In this document: positions 1,759-9,496 of the stretch, one piece after another
Layout: every line of letters starts with the position of its first letter
Position numbering within the stretch: the stretch's first letter is position 1
Notes under the pieces: model-generated
The model's database searches: none
What the model was told of the DNA's origin: nothing
What the model saw: the letters and a program-made list of their open reading frames with translations, nothing else
Program-made: the position numbers and the translations under genes
Assembly (NCBI GenBank): GCA_021157815.1
Contig: JAGGVT010000024.1
Location: 1 to 9,496 of the forward strand
Direction of reading: 5' to 3'
DNA from: a bacterium
GTDB lineage: Bacteria; JAJVIF01; JAGGVT01
DNA length: 9,496 bases

Positions 1759-4617
1759 ATGAAATCACTAAATTTACTTATTACACTGATGTTGCTTCTT
1801 TTCCTGCTGACATCCTGTTCAAAAAGCTCGAATCCACTAACTCCCGGCCAGATGGAGCTAAACGGTTCGGATGAGAATCCGGTTGTTGTCGCTGATTCAC
1901 AAATGCCTGTTAATCCCTACCGTGGCGTTTTTGGCGCGTGGGAGGTTAATGTGGATGTGGAAAATCTCACTGCGGAAATTATTCCTGCGAGAAACGCTCA
2001 GGTGATTGGTGATATTTACGATGCCGACCTTCTGCAGTTTCTCACGGTATCGCCATGCGCTAACTGCATAAGGATTACAAGAATCGCAATTGAAAGTTGG
2101 TATTTGGAGATGGATGTCGGGATAAAGCATCCTTTCGATAACTTAACTGCACGACCTGACCTTCATGGATTCGATGTACGATTGATGTTTATATATGGCG
2201 ACTGGACTGATGAAATTACAGGTATTAACGTAATGCTGCCTGATGGTTCCGAAGTGGTTGCCGATGTGCCGATAAACACACTTGTTAACGCCGATGGTTT
2301 CACATCACATTTTGACAGCATCGTAACAGATGAACGTTATTTTATTGGCGGCTCGGATGTTCTCGGCAATATAAATCCTTTCCTGCGTTATTTTCAGGAC
2401 AACACAGTAAGTGAATTTGACCCTCATGCGCCATCGGGTCAGAATGTCATGCCTGTCGGCTCAGCTTTTGAAACACGTACTGCACAGCTAAGCAGCTGGG
2501 GCTGTGAAGGTTTGAAATTATATCTGGTTGCGGATGTAGCGTACGGACATTCCGCTACTTATCTTAATCGTCCTGACCCGCAATACTACCTTCCTGAATT
2601 TCATCGAACCGAGCCCTGGCGTATTGAATACTGGAATGAAAACAATAACCTCGATGGTGCAAATCCGGCATCTACCGCGGATATCATGGTTCAGGTTTTC
2701 GATTGGCAGCATGGGGCGACTGTTGATCCTGACTATCCTAATCCCGATAACCTGTCAGGAATTTCACAATCCAGCAATGTCAGCCAGCTTGAACTTCTAT
2801 TACCCGCTCTCCAGGATGATCCGATTATTGTTGATACACCGGAATCAGGAACCGGAACTCCGCAGGACCCGTTGACTTATCGTCTTCAGGTTACAAACGA
2901 AAAAGGCAGCAACTATACTTTTTGGTCTGGCTTGCTTGCGGTAAGGGATGAGCTTTACGGACAAACCGGAAGAATGCCGATACCGGTACTGCCAGCCGGA
3001 TTCCCGTATGACACGGAGGATATTCTTGATTACACCTATTACAACCTTGTTTATGTGAATAACCCAAATTCAGCAAGCTATTATGGCCTTAATATTAATG
3101 GAGAACTTGATATTGACAATGATGACCTGTACGCACAATATGTCAACACAATCTTACGGCCGCGATTCTTCATGGATCCGGGTGGGAAAAGATTCCAGTA
3201 CAGGTGGGATTACGACTATGACGGTATCACGTTTGATGACGACGGCGGGGGGAATCCAAGCCCGAGAATCGAGTTTACAGAGGGTGGCATACACAATGTC
3301 GGATTGAGAATCAGAACCAATTCAGTACCGCCGCGTGAATATATCTATACAATACCGATAACCGTCAACGGTACGGTGTTCGAGGGTGATATAGATTCAA
3401 CAGTAATGGAAAAGAAAGACTGCACATCATATAATCGATCGGCTGCTATTGGCTGGTCATCGGATTATTACTACTGCGCTTTCACATCCGAAGCGACAAC
3501 AATAAAAAGAGATGTCTGGCTTGCCGTTTATAACACGTCAACAGGGCTTTTCACTTCACACAACCTGACATCAGCATTATCAGTCGATTGTTCCCATCCA
3601 GCGATTACGGTTATCGAGGATGGCGAACACGACAGGGTTGTTGTTGTTTTTAATATTATCAATGGCCTTGGTGAATGGCATTTCTATTCAACATGGGGAA
3701 ATCTTGACGGTTCAAATTTTCTCGGAGCCCACATTACTTCTCTTGGCACAACAAGAGTAATCAACGCGTATGCGGATACTGTTTATCAATACGAAAAAAT
3801 ATTTGCTTATTACTGGTCAACCCCTAATCCCTTTATTGAGGGGAATATCGAAATCGCTTACTCAAGTGATTATGGCGAATCATGGAACATTCATCCAACG
3901 CTAATTGAAAGCGCTTCAAAATGTAAATTTGCACCAATAGTGGTCTATTCCACAAGAGAGCCAAGGACATACGTAATGTGGGAGGATTGCCGCGATTCCG
4001 GTACTAATGGAACGGATTTATATATTGCGAGATCATATTTGGGACTTAATTTTGAAACACCGATAAATATCTCCAATTTCATCGGCGATGTTGATGAGAA
4101 GGATCCTGAGGCTGTTGCCTGTAGTTCTAAAATCGCCATTGCTTATCTTGCTGACCCGGATGGTGTTGGAAACGATGAAGTCTGGGTGAAATTGCTGGAT
4201 GTTTACGATGAATTATATGTCGATTTCAAGGTTGGTTATGCATCCGCAACAGTCGATTGCCTGAGGCCATCAATTGGGATGGCGGTTGACAACAAAATGG
4301 CGGTTGCATACTTATCCTATAATACGGTATCTGAAGAACTCACAAGCTACGTTAGTGAACTTGAATCATATGGTGGTTTCTTTGACCTGCGGCAATGGCC
4401 GATATACAGTGAATCAGCTGGAACTATAGACTCAACTGGAATTAGCTATAATTATGGTCCTGGTGTTATTTGCAGGAGTTTACTGAAGAATGACGCTTAC
4501 GAAACTTTCGCGATCTGGACAGGATATAATCACGGTTCAGAGAAAGTTACAACACCGTTTACAATGTATTTCGGTGATATCGAAGGTATTTCTGTTATAA
4601 GGAATGGGGATATATAG
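1759..4617 (+). CDS. Large surface lipoprotein with PKD-like and sialidase-type beta-propeller regions
   Basis: 952 residues. The N-terminus has K2, a hydrophobic stretch and the lipobox L17-T-S-C20, so it should be exported by Sec, lipidated on Cys20 and anchored to a membrane. Residues about 50-330 form a domain I do not recognise; it includes a CxxC pair (C100, C103). Residues about 470-545 resemble a PKD/Ig-like fold (YRWDYDYDG..FDDDGGG followed by GGIHNVGLRIRT). Residues about 550-950 look like a beta-propeller, with one Asp-box, SSDYGESW, at 702-709 and a WEDCRDSG...TDLYIARS blade. This last region is paralogous to the partial gene at 2-1270. No catalytic residues of true sialidases could be assigned, so carbohydrate or surface binding is only a guess. 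The stop TAG (4615-4617) shares its G with the first unit of octamer array 3. The next gene is convergent. Confidence 0.9.
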   Translation: MKSLNLLITLMLLLFLLTSCSKSSNPLTPGQMELNGSDENPVVVADSQMPVNPYRGVFGAWEVNVDVENLTAEIIPARNAQVIGDIYDADLLQFLTVSPCANCIRITRIAIESWYLEMDVGIKHPFDNLTARPDLHGFDVRLMFIYGDWTDEITGINVMLPDGSEVVADVPINTLVNADGFTSHFDSIVTDERYFIGGSDVLGNINPFLRYFQDNTVSEFDPHAPSGQNVMPVGSAFETRTAQLSSWGCEGLKLYLVADVAYGHSATYLNRPDPQYYLPEFHRTEPWRIEYWNENNNLDGANPASTADIMVQVFDWQHGATVDPDYPNPDNLSGISQSSNVSQLELLLPALQDDPIIVDTPESGTGTPQDPLTYRLQVTNEKGSNYTFWSGLLAVRDELYGQTGRMPIPVLPAGFPYDTEDILDYTYYNLVYVNNPNSASYYGLNINGELDIDNDDLYAQYVNTILRPRFFMDPGGKRFQYRWDYDYDGITFDDDGGGNPSPRIEFTEGGIHNVGLRIRTNSVPPREYIYTIPITVNGTVFEGDIDSTVMEKKDCTSYNRSAAIGWSSDYYYCAFTSEATTIKRDVWLAVYNTSTGLFTSHNLTSALSVDCSHPAITVIEDGEHDRVVVVFNIINGLGEWHFYSTWGNLDGSNFLGAHITSLGTTRVINAYADTVYQYEKIFAYYWSTPNPFIEGNIEIAYSSDYGESWNIHPTLIESASKCKFAPIVVYSTREPRTYVMWEDCRDSGTNGTDLYIARSYLGLNFETPINISNFIGDVDEKDPEAVACSSKIAIAYLADPDGVGNDEVWVKLLDVYDELYVDFKVGYASATVDCLRPSIGMAVDNKMAVAYLSYNTVSEELTSYVSELESYGGFFDLRQWPIYSESAGTIDSTGISYNYGPGVICRSLLKNDAYETFAIWTGYNHGSEKVTTPFTMYFGDIEGISVIRNGDI

Positions 4618-4910: not shown

Positions 4911-5564
4911 TCAAACGCCTTTGGTATCCGGACCCCAGATATGCTTGTGTATCTGGATACTCAAACGCACCGGCAATCCGCATGGCAATATCCATTCTGC
5001 AAGACTGGCAGGCTCGATAAATCCCCATGCCGGCTGGAATATCAGATTCGGTGTTTTTTCGAGGAGTTTCCATTCTTTGGTTATATCCACTGCCCAGTCG
5101 AAATCATCCTTTGACGTTATAACGAATTTGATGTCATCACGGACGGTTATGAAATCCAGATTTGATTTGAGGAAACTGCCGCCAGCTCCGCTTCCGGGAG
5201 TTTTAATATCGACTGACTTAATTGCCTTTGGCGCGACTGCGTTTAAATCCAAACTGCCGTTGGTTTCGAGATGAACCTCACGATTTCCCGATAGAAGCTG
5301 AATAATCAAAAACAGCGATTCCTCCTGCATAAGAGGTTCGCCGCCTGTGATAAACACCGGGTAAATCCACGGTGAGCTGACTTTCTCTATTATCTCATCA
5401 ATTGAAAAATAAGGCCCGGATTTATTTTCAATCGTATCGCAATAGACGCAATTCAGATTGCATCCTGAAACACGCACAAAATGCATCGGACGTCCCACAT
5501 GAGCGCCCTCGCCCTGAATGCTTGTGAATATCTCATTGATTCTAAGAATGTGTTGAGATGTCAT
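4911..5564 (-). CDS. queE: 7-carboxy-7-deazaguanine synthase
   Basis: 217 residues. QueE is a radical SAM enzyme that converts 6-carboxy-5,6,7,8-tetrahydropterin to 7-carboxy-7-deazaguanine in the preQ0/queuosine pathway, in the cytoplasm. Motifs seen: FTSIQGEG at 13-20; the GRPMHFVR stretch; the Fe-S cluster motif C35-x3-C39-x2-C42 followed by D43; GGEP at 74-77, which contacts S-adenosylmethionine in this family; ETNG at 100-103; and the D-x-K-x-PGSG stretch. The C-terminal QIHKHIWGPDTKGV stretch is typical of the family, so the gene is full length. Its ATG overlaps the TGA of queD by four bases (ATGA), which implies a shared transcript and translational coupling. A weak AGGGA lies close to the start. 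Confidence 0.96.
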   Translation of the reverse strand: MTSQHILRINEIFTSIQGEGAHVGRPMHFVRVSGCNLNCVYCDTIENKSGPYFSIDEIIEKVSSPWIYPVFITGGEPLMQEESLFLIIQLLSGNREVHLETNGSLDLNAVAPKAIKSVDIKTPGSGAGGSFLKSNLDFITVRDDIKFVITSKDDFDWAVDITKEWKLLEKTPNLIFQPAWGFIEPASLAEWILPCGLPVRLSIQIHKHIWGPDTKGV

Positions 5565-5932
5565 GATTCCCTGTAAACGGCGCGTGAATTTTCGCTTTCG
5601 TGAACGCAGATTTCCTTTATTCGCACATCTGTGTCAACCAGATGTTCTTTCAATCTATCGTGGATGAATTTTGCTATTCGTTCTGCGGACGGGTTCAACT
5701 CTTTAAACTCAGGATGATCATTCAACAGCGTGTGGTCAAGTTCATCGAGGATTTCACCAAGCGCTTTTTTCAGTAATTGGAAATCATAAAGCAGTCCGGT
5801 GTCATTAACGTTGTCGCCATATACAGTAGCCTCGACAACCCAGTTGTGGCCATGCAGGTTTTCGCATTTTCCCTCATATTCACGAAGGAAATGCGCCCCG
5901 CTGAAATGTGTCTTTACAGTTATTTCGTACAT
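5561..5932 (-). CDS. queD: 6-carboxy-5,6,7,8-tetrahydropterin synthase
   Basis: 123 residues, the usual length for QueD. It converts 7,8-dihydroneopterin triphosphate to 6-carboxy-tetrahydropterin, the substrate of QueE. Zinc ligands H14 (SGAHFL), H27 and H29 are present. The C23-x3-H-G-H motif marks QueD rather than eukaryotic-type pyruvoyl-tetrahydropterin synthase, with C23 the catalytic cysteine. D66-H67 (ELDHTLLND) and E112 (VHESENS) are the other expected active-site residues. It is the first gene of a queD-queE operon. There is no strong Shine-Dalgarno sequence: only GGTG, 7 bases before the ATG, and that GGTG belongs to a hairpin repeat (5934-5967). The promoter must lie within the repeat-filled stretch upstream or be shared with the exonuclease gene. 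Confidence 0.97.
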   Translation of the reverse strand: MYEITVKTHFSGAHFLREYEGKCENLHGHNWVVEATVYGDNVNDTGLLYDFQLLKKALGEILDELDHTLLNDHPEFKELNPSAERIAKFIHDRLKEHLVDTDVRIKEICVHESENSRAVYRES

Positions 5933-6123: not shown

Positions 6124-6267
6124 CTACAAACCTACAAACCTACTAACCTGCTAACCTGCTAACCTGCTAACTTGCTAACCTGCTAACCTGCTAACCTGCT
6201 AACCTGCTAACTTGCTAACCTGCTAACCTGCTAACCTGCTAACCTACTAACCTACTAACCTACTAAC
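6124..6267 (-). repeat. Octamer tandem array 4, 18 units, supplying a stop codon
   Basis: Eighteen in-register units of CTGCTAAC and variants (TTGCTAAC, CTACTAAC, and CTACAAAC at the outer edge), reading GTTAGCAG on the minus strand. The TAG stop of the exonuclease gene (6265-6263) lies inside the first unit on that strand, as at array 3. The edge units are the most diverged and the central ones nearly uniform. Confidence 0.95.
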
Positions 6268-8818
6268 CGTCGTCCAAACTGTCCTTTTCACCATCCAGCT
6301 GCCCAAGAAAAACAATGCCGGATTCGCTTGTGGCGAGTTTTTCATCAAGGATGAACATGCGAGCTTTGCCATCAAGGTAATTCTGCCATCGCTTGAGGCT
6401 TCTTGTTAGTGTGAAATGGATTCTCGGTTCGAGATATTCGGTGAAGTAATCCGCGCCCGCATCCTCTATTTCATGTTTGATAAACACCTCGATTGGGTCT
6501 TGCATCGATGTCAGATGCAGCGACTCAAATATCAGGTTATCCGGCGGATTGGCAAACTGCAGAATGTTCGTAACAAGGTCGGTTAGTCCGAAGAAAACCA
6601 CGTTGTCATGCTTTGAAAATTCTTTTATCAGAAGTCCCTTGGGACCATCCTGCTTCTGGAAAAGGGGCCAGAATCCCGCTTTTTTCAATTTGGGTGAAAG
6701 GCGATATTTGAAATTAAGAAGTTCCTGGCTGCCTCGCACTATCACGATTGTTCGCCCGGGGAATCGGGAGAGAATTTTCGTGATAACCTCGCCCTTTATC
6801 TCCAGTAGTTTCTTCTTGGATGGCTTGATCTCAACGGATTCAGGCGGCGCAATGTATATCCGGTTGCCATCGGGAATACGCTTTGACACGTCATGGAATT
6901 CAACCGGATGTTTGTCCCGTCCAAGAAGCCGAATGTATTTTTCCCAATCCTCGGTATCGCAGATATGGTGTGTCAGATAGAAAATCCGTTTGACATCATC
7001 AGGAATTTCAAGGAATTCAAGATGGAAGATATGCGGGAAAAACAGGAAACGGCAGGTTTCAGGCGATGCTTTATCGATTTTATCAAAACAGAGAACCATG
7101 TCATCTTTAGACATCGACTCAATTGCCTTCTCAAGTTCGGAGGAGAAATGCTCCAGCATTCTTGAGATGATGACAACCGGTTCAGGAGCGGAGTCAGGAA
7201 GCGATTCAATAAAATCATGTGCAATGCTGATATGATTTTCCAGCTCGTGTATCACCCCCGCCGCTTCATCCATCAAACTGTCGTCAATGAAAAGGAAAAA
7301 GCGTTTTCCCTTTTGCAATCGACGGCTTCCAGCGTTCTGTATGATGTTATCAACAAGATTGTTGATTGTCTCAATCGTATCATTGGCACGTTCAAGTATT
7401 TTCAAAGACTGCGCTGTGTTCTCATCCGGCAGGAATTTGATAATCTTGTTCATCAGAACATTATTGTGATTAAGCCCAAAAGCCATGATTCCGGCGGACA
7501 GATTATCCCTGAAGATGCCTTCAGGATTCATGAATGTCAGATCAGCATCCATGTTCGATTCCTCAGCGCCTGGAACATTCATTTCCTCTTTTAGCACTCT
7601 GAACGGGAAACCGAGACGGTTCGCTGATTTTGCTTTCTCAACAGCTTTTAGATATAAGCAGTTATCAGTGAAGGGGCAGTCATCCTGCTTGCAGTTTGAT
7701 GCGTTCAAATAGGGAATCGCGGATGCCAGATTTGACAGGTTATTCCATATCCACCAGCTAAGCCGTGAGAAATTTCCCATCTGGCTGTTTGATGCAAACG
7801 AACTTAAAACAGCAATTTCAAATCCGGTCAGCGCCAATCGTTCGTGAATGCTCTCCTCGATAAAAATCCGCATCTGACGCCTGCACAGAAGCCTGTTTTT
7901 GCCGGGATAGAGCTCGATGCCGTCAGTCTCATCGAAAATCGTGTTCCACTTCTTGTCAACTCCCCAGTAATTACCGGGGAATTGCGTGGCTGGAAAAACA
8001 AAGTGATGGCGTATGTTCTCGGGATAAAGGTTGACGTCACGGAAGATATCCTGCGGGGATTTATCTTCTTCAGGTGTGATTCTGATTAGCAGATCCTCTT
8101 TTGATGAAGAAATTATTTTCTTAAACTTTTTGTTCGAGCCTGCTGGAGGGGATTTGGTTATCTTTACCGTATTTGGCACTGACGCATATTTCTCAAAATC
8201 GGGGTGTTCAAGGATATGTTTCAACGGTATGGAAATATCGGTGCCTTGAAGATATTCACATGCGATTTTTTCCAACAGTTCTCTTTTAAAAACGGAAGGG
8301 ACATTTCTCAGAAACTCTATGAACAATTTGCCTGTTACAATGCAATCCTCAGATGCCCTGTGCGCTTTTACAACCGGAACATTGAAAGCATACGCGAGCG
8401 CCTCAAGGCCAAAGGATTGGATTTCAGGATATAAAAGAACACTCAGCTTAAGGTTATCCCAAATCGGATTGGTGGGGATTTCCATATTAATGCGTGGAAG
8501 CTTTTCACTTAAAAAGCCCATGTCGAAATCGGCGTTATGCGCAACGATAGGAAGATTCTCGATGAAATCGAGAAACCCCGGCATGACATCGCTGAAACTG
8601 TGTGCCCAGTCAAGCTCTCCGGTTGTCAAACCGGTTAATGCGGCGATCCTGTCAGGGAGAGGCCTTGTAGGGCGAATCAGCCGGTTGAAATGGTCAACAG
8701 CTTTGCCGTTTGAGAATTTTGTCGCTCCGACTTCAATTATGTCACTCTGCGATGGGTCAAGCCCTGTCGTTTCGAGATCAATCGCAACAAAATCGGGAAA
8801 GTAACTGTTTTCAGAAAT
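6263..8818 (-). CDS. DnaQ-type 3'-5' exonuclease fused to a degenerate DinG-like helicase domain
   Basis: 851 residues if started at the ATT at 8818-8816; the frame opens only after the TGA at 8848-8846. Residues 9-170 form a DEDDh exonuclease with every catalytic residue: D14 and E16 (DLETTG), D99 (HNADFD), H153 and D158 (HRASED). The rest matches the layout of ExoDinG proteins (such as the S. aureus DinG nuclease, about 900 residues). Four Fe-S cysteines are kept: C312, then C376-x4-C381-x5-C387, the E. coli DinG spacing for the last three. The ATPase is lost: the Walker A position reads ITPEEDKS (247-254), the DEAH position reads NPEG (431-434), and motifs V and VI (about 743-755 and 805-812) lack the usual glycines and arginines. 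I infer a DNA- or RNA-trimming nuclease with a non-motor substrate-binding domain. A TTG at 8629-8627 would remove the first exonuclease motif and is not credible as the start. The stop lies in octamer array 4. Confidence 0.88.
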   Translation of the reverse strand: MSENSYFPDFVAIDLETTGLDPSQSDIIEVGATKFSNGKAVDHFNRLIRPTRPLPDRIAALTGLTTGELDWAHSFSDVMPGFLDFIENLPIVAHNADFDMGFLSEKLPRINMEIPTNPIWDNLKLSVLLYPEIQSFGLEALAYAFNVPVVKAHRASEDCIVTGKLFIEFLRNVPSVFKRELLEKIACEYLQGTDISIPLKHILEHPDFEKYASVPNTVKITKSPPAGSNKKFKKIISSSKEDLLIRITPEEDKSPQDIFRDVNLYPENIRHHFVFPATQFPGNYWGVDKKWNTIFDETDGIELYPGKNRLLCRRQMRIFIEESIHERLALTGFEIAVLSSFASNSQMGNFSRLSWWIWNNLSNLASAIPYLNASNCKQDDCPFTDNCLYLKAVEKAKSANRLGFPFRVLKEEMNVPGAEESNMDADLTFMNPEGIFRDNLSAGIMAFGLNHNNVLMNKIIKFLPDENTAQSLKILERANDTIETINNLVDNIIQNAGSRRLQKGKRFFLFIDDSLMDEAAGVIHELENHISIAHDFIESLPDSAPEPVVIISRMLEHFSSELEKAIESMSKDDMVLCFDKIDKASPETCRFLFFPHIFHLEFLEIPDDVKRIFYLTHHICDTEDWEKYIRLLGRDKHPVEFHDVSKRIPDGNRIYIAPPESVEIKPSKKKLLEIKGEVITKILSRFPGRTIVIVRGSQELLNFKYRLSPKLKKAGFWPLFQKQDGPKGLLIKEFSKHDNVVFFGLTDLVTNILQFANPPDNLIFESLHLTSMQDPIEVFIKHEIEDAGADYFTEYLEPRIHFTLTRSLKRWQNYLDGKARMFILDEKLATSESGIVFLGQLDGEKDSLDDG

Positions 8819-8823
8819 AGTAA

Positions 8824-8844
8824 TTACACCTCTTTGTGTGCCAT
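8824..8844 (-). other. Six-codon leader ORF (MAHKEV) or trace of a frameshift
   Basis: The only ATG just upstream of the exonuclease (8844-8842) is in another frame. It reads six codons to a TAA ending at 8824, five bases before the proposed ATT start. It contains the GAGGTG used by that start. It could be a translated leader with reinitiation, chance, or the true N-terminus broken by a one-base change. Confidence 0.3.
8827..8833 (-). promoter_or_regulatory. Ribosome binding site pointing to an ATT start
   Basis: AGAGGTG (six contiguous matches to the anti-Shine-Dalgarno) lies 8 bases before the in-frame ATT at 8818-8816. It lies only 2 bases before the other ATT (8824-8822) and inside the six-codon ORF, so it decides the start of the exonuclease gene. 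Confidence 0.6.
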
Positions 8845-8941: not shown

Positions 8942-9496
8942 ATGGAAGACGTGCAAGGCAGAACTGACAGCCGTGGTATTCCCATTGACCGTGTTGGGAT
9001 CAAGGGTCTCAAGTACCCTATTACCGTTCTCGACCGCGAAAAAGGGAAGCAGTCCACCATTGCGTCAATCAACATGTTTGTTGATCTCAGCCCCATGTTC
9101 AAGGGCACTCACATGAGCCGCTTCATTGAGATACTCAACGAGCACAGGGAAAATTTCGAGATGAGGAAATTCACGAAAATCGTGCGTGACATTCGCAAAA
9201 GATTCGAAAGCCGCAGCGCGCATCTTGAACTCACGTTTCCATATTTCATCGAGCGAACATCTCCCGTCAGCAAATCATTATCGTTAATGGAATACACATC
9301 GCATATTCTACTCAGCTCAATTGATTCAAAAGATACGGACATCGTGGTCGGAGTCAGCGTGCCACTCACAACTGTATGCCCGTGCTCACAGGAGATTTCA
9401 GAAATCGGCGCGCATAACCAGCGTTCGATTCTGACAATTAAATTCCGCATGGATGATTTTGTCTGGATTGAGGAGATAATTGAACTCGCCGAGGGA
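8942..9496 (+). CDS. folE2: GTP cyclohydrolase IB (FolE2), N-terminal 185 residues, 3' end outside window
   Basis: The frame runs from ATG 8942 to the last base of the window without a stop. The start, MEDVQGRTDSRGIPIDRVGI followed by KGLKYPITV, is typical of FolE2, as is the TTVCPCSQEIS...GAHNQRS stretch at 143-162. C146 and H158 have the 12-residue spacing of metal ligands C147 and H159 known from the Neisseria enzyme; the C-terminal glutamate ligands lie beyond the window. The enzyme converts GTP to 7,8-dihydroneopterin triphosphate, feeding both folate and 7-deazaguanine synthesis. Unlike FolE it does not depend strictly on zinc, and it is often induced by zinc limitation in other bacteria, though no clear Zur site is seen here. 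There is no Shine-Dalgarno before the ATG, in line with a leaderless mRNA. It is divergent from the exonuclease gene and 3 kb from queD-queE, whose substrate it makes. Confidence 0.95.
   Translation, partial: MEDVQGRTDSRGIPIDRVGIKGLKYPITVLDREKGKQSTIASINMFVDLSPMFKGTHMSRFIEILNEHRENFEMRKFTKIVRDIRKRFESRSAHLELTFPYFIERTSPVSKSLSLMEYTSHILLSSIDSKDTDIVVGVSVPLTTVCPCSQEISEIGAHNQRSILTIKFRMDDFVWIEEIIELAEG

Follow-up and report, generated by a model that had tools for sequence, protein, structure and literature searches.

Can a DinG-type protein lose its helicase motor, yet keep both its exonuclease and the cysteines of its Fe–S cluster, and if so, what is the rest of the helicase for? The question is raised by one gene in a bacterial contig of 9,496 nt (JAGGVT010000024.1), which was analysed at its full length and is referred to here as the window. 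The gene has the architecture of an ExoDinG, an exonuclease fused to a DinG-derived body, and its features are as follows.

6263..8818, minus strand: exonuclease–DinG fusion gene, 851 aa, motor-dead
8827..8833, minus strand: Shine–Dalgarno-like AGAGGTG, ending 8 nt before the ATT (read from the sequence)
8816..8818, minus strand: probable start codon ATT, rare (frame reading and G002 homologue)
8306..8791, minus strand: DnaQ/DEDDh exonuclease domain, residues 10–171 (Pfam RNase_T, 1.5e-30; AlphaFold pLDDT about 90)
8771..8779, minus strand: catalytic D14 and E16, in DLE (sequence, alignment)
8522..8524, minus strand: catalytic D99 (sequence, alignment)
8345..8362, minus strand: catalytic H153 and D158 (sequence, alignment)
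8057..8080, minus strand: site of the missing Walker A motif, reading ITPEEDKS, residues 247–254 (spacing to C312)
7883..7885, minus strand: Fe–S-type cysteine C312 (sequence, alignment)
7658..7693, minus strand: Fe–S-type cysteines C376, C381 and C387, CKQDDCPFTDNC (sequence, alignment)
7517..7528, minus strand: site of the missing DEAH box, reading NPEG, residues 431–434 (spacing to C387)
6266..6937, minus strand: remnant of the second motor (RecA-like) domain, residues 628–851, motifs IV–VI degenerate (typeIV_DinG HMM, TIGR01407, pLDDT 75–93 at 671–760)

The 851-codon frame is unbroken from the ATT at 8818 to the stop codon at 6265–6263. No ATG, GTG or TTG lies in this frame upstream of the exonuclease motif, and a homologue in another species of the same phylum (G002) begins with ATG at almost the position of the ATT. 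The ATT, with its good Shine–Dalgarno sequence, is a rare AUU start or else results from a base error, and it may cast a small doubt on expression of the gene. The unusual start codon, and a fragmented genome (90.9 % complete, 221 contigs), could suggest a normal ExoDinG gene spoiled by assembly or sequencing error. The chance of this is negligible in our view, as the same motif losses were seen in separately assembled relatives from two other families of the phylum, one of these assemblies comprising 4 contigs at 99 % completeness.

The gene is enclosed by a queuosine/preQ0 cluster, with a queD–queE pair at 4911–5932 and folE2 at 8942–9496. Tandem arrays of 8 bp units (GTTAGCAG-type) fill gaps directly after genes (1273–1474, 1640–1740 and 6129–6268), and the exonuclease–DinG stop codon falls within such an array. 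With at most one mismatch allowed, the genome contains 388 copies of the 24-mer made up of three array units; the reversed control gave 0. Two adjacent ORFs, 2–1270 and 1759–4617, are paralogous (57 % identity over 429 aa); the latter, the complete paralogue, has a lipoprotein-like signal at its start and no Pfam match.

The preliminary description of the locus, made from the sequence alone, had proposed an intact exonuclease, and the residues that it named (D14, E16, D99, H153 and D158) were all present and were invariant in a 12-sequence alignment. The exonuclease was the only domain of the protein to pass its Pfam cut-off, so misannotation of such proteins as plain exonucleases or as DinG helicases is to be expected.

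The approximately 680 residues after the exonuclease gave weak DinG signals only. Helicase_C_2 scored 12.1 bits, below the Pfam cut-off of 25.3, DEAD_2 gave no Pfam match, and the PADLOC model of CRISPR type IV DinG (typeIV_DinG) matched residues 627–836 at 5.4e-5. The ExoDinG model TIGR01407 matched the C-terminal part at 2.5e-5, but its total of 156.8 bits did not reach the curated cut-off of 547.7 bits, and we therefore class the protein as a divergent ExoDinG derivative rather than a standard member. Homology was settled by profile–profile comparison, by which the helicase part is DinG-derived: hhalign joined the sequences of the window's phylum to intact ExoDinGs with a probability of 99.7 % over 536 columns, and a profile built from 12 motor-dead proteins matched E. 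coli DinG (6fwr, E 1.3e-4), starting at residue 193. In its helicase part, the window protein is about 15 % identical to intact ExoDinGs. To call the DinG part full length, as had been done, was generous, since the protein has 851 aa against 914–990 in intact relatives.

Two spacings locate the places where the motor motifs should be. In intact proteins, the first Fe–S cysteine comes 59–67 residues after the Walker A lysine, and C312 comes 59 residues after K253 of ITPEEDKS; NPEG lies 44 residues after C387, compared with 41–42 for the DEAH box of intact proteins. The correct sites had therefore been examined in the preliminary description, and the motifs are absent from them. MAFFT aligned ITPEEDKS with motif Ia instead of Walker A, and no alignment of the window protein restored a P-loop. 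Alignment and spacing together leave the protein without Walker A, DEAH and motifs III, V and VI, which bears out the reported loss of Walker A and DEAH and the unrecognizable motifs V and VI, and adds motif III to the list. Lacking Walker A, DEAH and the motif VI arginines, the protein cannot unwind in the way usual for XPD-type helicases, and it should not be named a helicase, since the defining motifs fail. An ATPase might survive nonetheless, either at an unconventional site or through ATP hydrolysis by a partner such as MutS2. K253–S254 does have the Lys–Ser/Thr spacing of Walker A, and mutS2, an ATPase gene, adjoins the homologous gene in a second phylum. However, the window protein has neither P-loop glycines nor DEAH nor the motif VI arginines, the P-loop segment has apparently been deleted in the second-phylum proteins, and the window gene is not adjacent to mutS2, its neighbours being queD, queE and folE2; we accord a live ATPase a very small probability.

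The cysteines contrast with the motor. All four that had been reported (C312, C376, C381 and C387) are present, the last three spaced by 5 and 6 residues, and the distance from C312 to C387 is 75 residues, within the 69–75 of intact ExoDinGs. E. coli DinG and the XPD family have four cysteines in corresponding positions, and in DinG the last three (C194, C199 and C205) are likewise 5 and 6 residues apart; the window protein differs from that family in lacking Walker A, DEAH and motif VI and in carrying an exonuclease. Outside the exonuclease, an alignment of 20 intact ExoDinGs has 72 invariant columns; the window protein retains 19 of these, all four cysteines included. A hypergeometric estimate (p about 0.004) suggests that retention by chance would not easily account for this, and position and conservation make it likely that the cysteines still carry an Fe–S cluster. 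Alternatively, they might hold zinc or nothing, the inherited spacing serving a structural zinc knuckle. Zinc and Fe–S sites of four cysteines are not distinguishable from sequence alone, and two relatives in the window's phylum manage without the full set; against zinc, position and spacing fit the [4Fe–4S] site of DinG, and the cysteines are invariant in the second phylum. We regard the zinc reading as unlikely, though it deserves some weight.

Our genome set held four species of the window's phylum (the window species, G001, G002 and G003), and all four encode a motor-dead homologue. That of G002 has 864 aa and that of G001 944 aa, whilst in G003 the protein lies as two halves on separate contigs, so that its motor-motif loss is judged from these halves and from its close kin G001. 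G001 and G003 retain a recognizable second motor domain, with Helicase_C_2 above cut-off and a motif V-like segment, and lack the motif VI arginines; motor loss has thus proceeded to different degrees within the phylum. Close homologues with a normal GTGKT and DEAH, which would have spoken against the proposed motor loss, were not found in the phylum, and an intact DinG was not detected in any of the four genomes (one 99 % complete, that of the window 90.9 %). The C-terminal halves of G001 and G003 gave a dN/dS of 0.08, at a dS near saturation (pN 0.20, pS 0.73). In G003, a KsgA/RsmA-like rRNA dimethyltransferase frame, read by eye (L136, 3491–4360), adjoins the homologue in the opposite orientation.

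Within this phylum, the formula of a cluster kept and a motor lost holds for the window protein only: it alone has the full cysteine set, G001 and G002 having lost most of the cluster cysteines. The cluster would therefore be dispensable for whatever role these proteins have in common. The same formula proved strikingly conserved elsewhere. One match outside the window's phylum, G016, turned out to be a member of a conserved group in a second phylum, for which we aligned 26 proteins of two families, f16 and f60 (complete frames of 678–861 aa, some others cut by the ends of their loci). All 26 lack Walker A, DEAH and, where the region is present, motif VI, and all 26 have the four cysteines. 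Outside the exonuclease, invariance in this group is limited to 10 of 560 columns, four of them occupied by the cysteines; one member, L137, has no cysteines beyond the four. Conservation of the exonuclease residues and the cysteines in homologues, with loss of the Walker residues, had been named as a check; it held for the exonuclease and Walker residues, and for the cysteines in the second phylum, though not in G001 and G002.

Selection on the DinG part was assessed in these relatives. The non-exonuclease part gave a dN/dS of 0.08 for the closest f16 pair (L137/L138) and of about 0.08–0.19 for f60 pairs with dS under 1. It evolves faster than the exonuclease part, but the value of about 0.1, obtained in relatives of the window species, is far from the dN/dS near 1 that had been named as grounds for abandoning the proposal. 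With the motif loss, this upholds the core of the preliminary description, namely that the motor was lost, the exonuclease kept and the protein retained under selection. Were the exonuclease alone useful, the DinG part could be a slowly eroding passenger, and the approximately 15 % identity to intact ExoDinGs, the cysteine losses in G001 and G002 and the faster evolution outside the exonuclease would all be in keeping with this. Such decay is very unlikely, however, given a long open frame in every member, a dN/dS of about 0.1 and four cysteines invariant across 26 proteins.

The second-phylum genes also share a neighbour. In each of the 25 loci with usable flank (L137–L163), the motor-dead ExoDinG gene directly follows a MutS2-like C terminus, the MutS2 identity being confirmed with Pfam at one of them. 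MutS2 rescues stalled ribosomes in Bacillus subtilis (PMC10897456) and the DinG of Listeria trims unprocessed rRNA (PMC12774634), so a role in RNA or ribosome biology is no more than a lead.

In a census of 385 genomes sampled across bacteria, with motor motifs judged by pattern, about 37 genomes had ExoDinGs with an intact motor and nine had a motor-dead one. Two of the nine were isolated cases, both with the four cysteines: G328 reads VQGVGKKS at Walker A and EEAD at DEAH, and G314 reads EAKNDNQS and YDSH, and intact ExoDinGs exist in the phylum of each. Motor-dead ExoDinGs thus recur in four phyla. Separate motor losses are likely because the motor-dead groups are more similar to intact ExoDinGs than to one another: hhalign gave 98.7 % for f16 and 99.1 % for f60 when these were compared with intact ExoDinGs, and 1.6 and 87 %, respectively, when they were compared with the window's phylum. 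The number of losses is likely to be at least two and probably four, although the trees are compatible with fewer. Four changes were needed on the exonuclease tree, but under the AU test a single clade of all motor-dead proteins was not rejected (p 0.08), and the same was true of a clade uniting the groups of the window's phylum and the G016 phylum (p 0.48); the full-length tree, which forced two changes, joined long branches and is not trusted. Other exonuclease-bearing frames of 590–800 aa in the census were not ExoDinGs, and those inspected resembled RecJ-type fusions. When a separate set of genome contigs was searched with the window protein, the matches were mostly clostridial PolC exonucleases, and the sole ExoDinG located there by motif was an intact one from Chloroflexota (L075). 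Viral contigs yielded exonuclease-only or unrelated proteins, and no ExoDinG turned up when they were scanned with an intact one.

An AlphaFold2 model, built on a shallow alignment of 11 sequences of which one was an ExoDinG, was confident for the exonuclease and fairly confident for a RecA-like segment at residues 671–760 (pLDDT 75–93). On this alignment, pLDDT fell below 50 over residues 213–464, so that the model gives low confidence for the fold of the Fe–S region, former motor domain 1 and the Arch. The best structural match was Staphylococcus aureus DinG (8zef/9ii8; E 1.4e-15, Z 24.8, rmsd 13.5 over 323 residues), a match to which the exonuclease domain contributes most.

Taken together, we consider it probable that the exonuclease stays active, that the motor is dead and that the DinG body serves as an ATP-independent binding scaffold, usually built around an Fe–S cluster. 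The protein would be an ExoDinG whose ATP-driven helicase motor died and whose 3′–5′ exonuclease remained active. Selection would keep the DinG body (two former RecA domains, Arch and Fe–S region) because it binds single-stranded DNA or RNA without ATP and offers the 3′ end to the exonuclease. We infer that the four cysteines probably continue to bind a [4Fe–4S] cluster, both in the window protein and in several other lineages. This cluster would hold former motor domain 1 together and shape the binding groove, its role being structure and binding, not unwinding. The 'Fe–S-dependent clamp' for an exonuclease that was first suggested for this protein is at this stage a hypothesis. A bolder version, in which several phyla have repeatedly made ExoDinG into a motor-free, Fe–S-dependent exonuclease, with the cluster acting on its own in nucleic-acid binding or redox control, apart from any helicase activity, and in one phylum an operon with MutS2, a factor of ribosome rescue or recombination, is possible but tentative.

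Known systems offer partial parallels. The ExoDinG subgroup (DinG of S. aureus, B. subtilis and L. monocytogenes; TIGR01407) has the same domain order, DEDDh residues and DinG-derived body, but its known members keep the ATPase motifs that the window protein lacks. Bacillales ExoDinGs lost the Fe–S cysteines (PMC11981726), whereas the window protein kept them and lost the motor motifs. S. aureus DinG had been put forward as a nuclease devoid of helicase activity, a view now outdated: a 2025 study found 5′–3′ helicase activity despite the missing cluster and reported its pseudo-Fe–S domain to be important for DNA binding even so (PMC12345164). Loss of the motor need not disable the nuclease, because the ATPase (DEAH-box) mutant E465A of Listeria DinG retains exonuclease activity (PMC12774634). 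In pExoDinG, for example of Caulobacter, one of the two enzymes is likewise dead, but the loss is the opposite one, of the exonuclease with the helicase kept (PMC11981726). A 2025 review of DinG-like proteins covers ExoDinGs with and without Fe–S cysteines and the dead-exonuclease form; an ExoDinG architecture with failed helicase motifs was absent from the open-access literature searched, which also yielded no biochemistry on any motor-dead member, and we regard the window protein as a new variant of ExoDinG.

The closest functional analogy, for which no homology is claimed, is with AddB and RecC of AddAB and RecBCD, dead helicases retained as DNA-binding modules beside a nuclease activity (PMC4824097). 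AddAB binds broken DNA via an Fe–S cluster, according to the entry for a J Biol Chem paper of 2009 listed in PMC4824097. AddB and RecC are of SF1 type, belong to a motor complex and have a different nuclease fold, whereas the window protein, derived from SF2, consists of one chain that carries a DEDDh exonuclease and lacks a motor. Motor-dead ExoDinGs would extend the use of inactivated helicases as nuclease accessories to the SF2/XPD family.

E. coli DinG and archaeal XPD usually cease to unwind when they lose the cluster, which is why the role of the XPD/DinG cluster, be it structure, lesion sensing or redox signalling, has been hard to separate from motor function. A second, distant phylum also conserves the cysteines without a motor, so here the cluster would have been separated from the motor naturally. 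Motor-dead ExoDinGs represent a natural experiment in which the motor is gone and the cluster cysteines are under selection, and they therefore make the question of the cluster's role directly testable.
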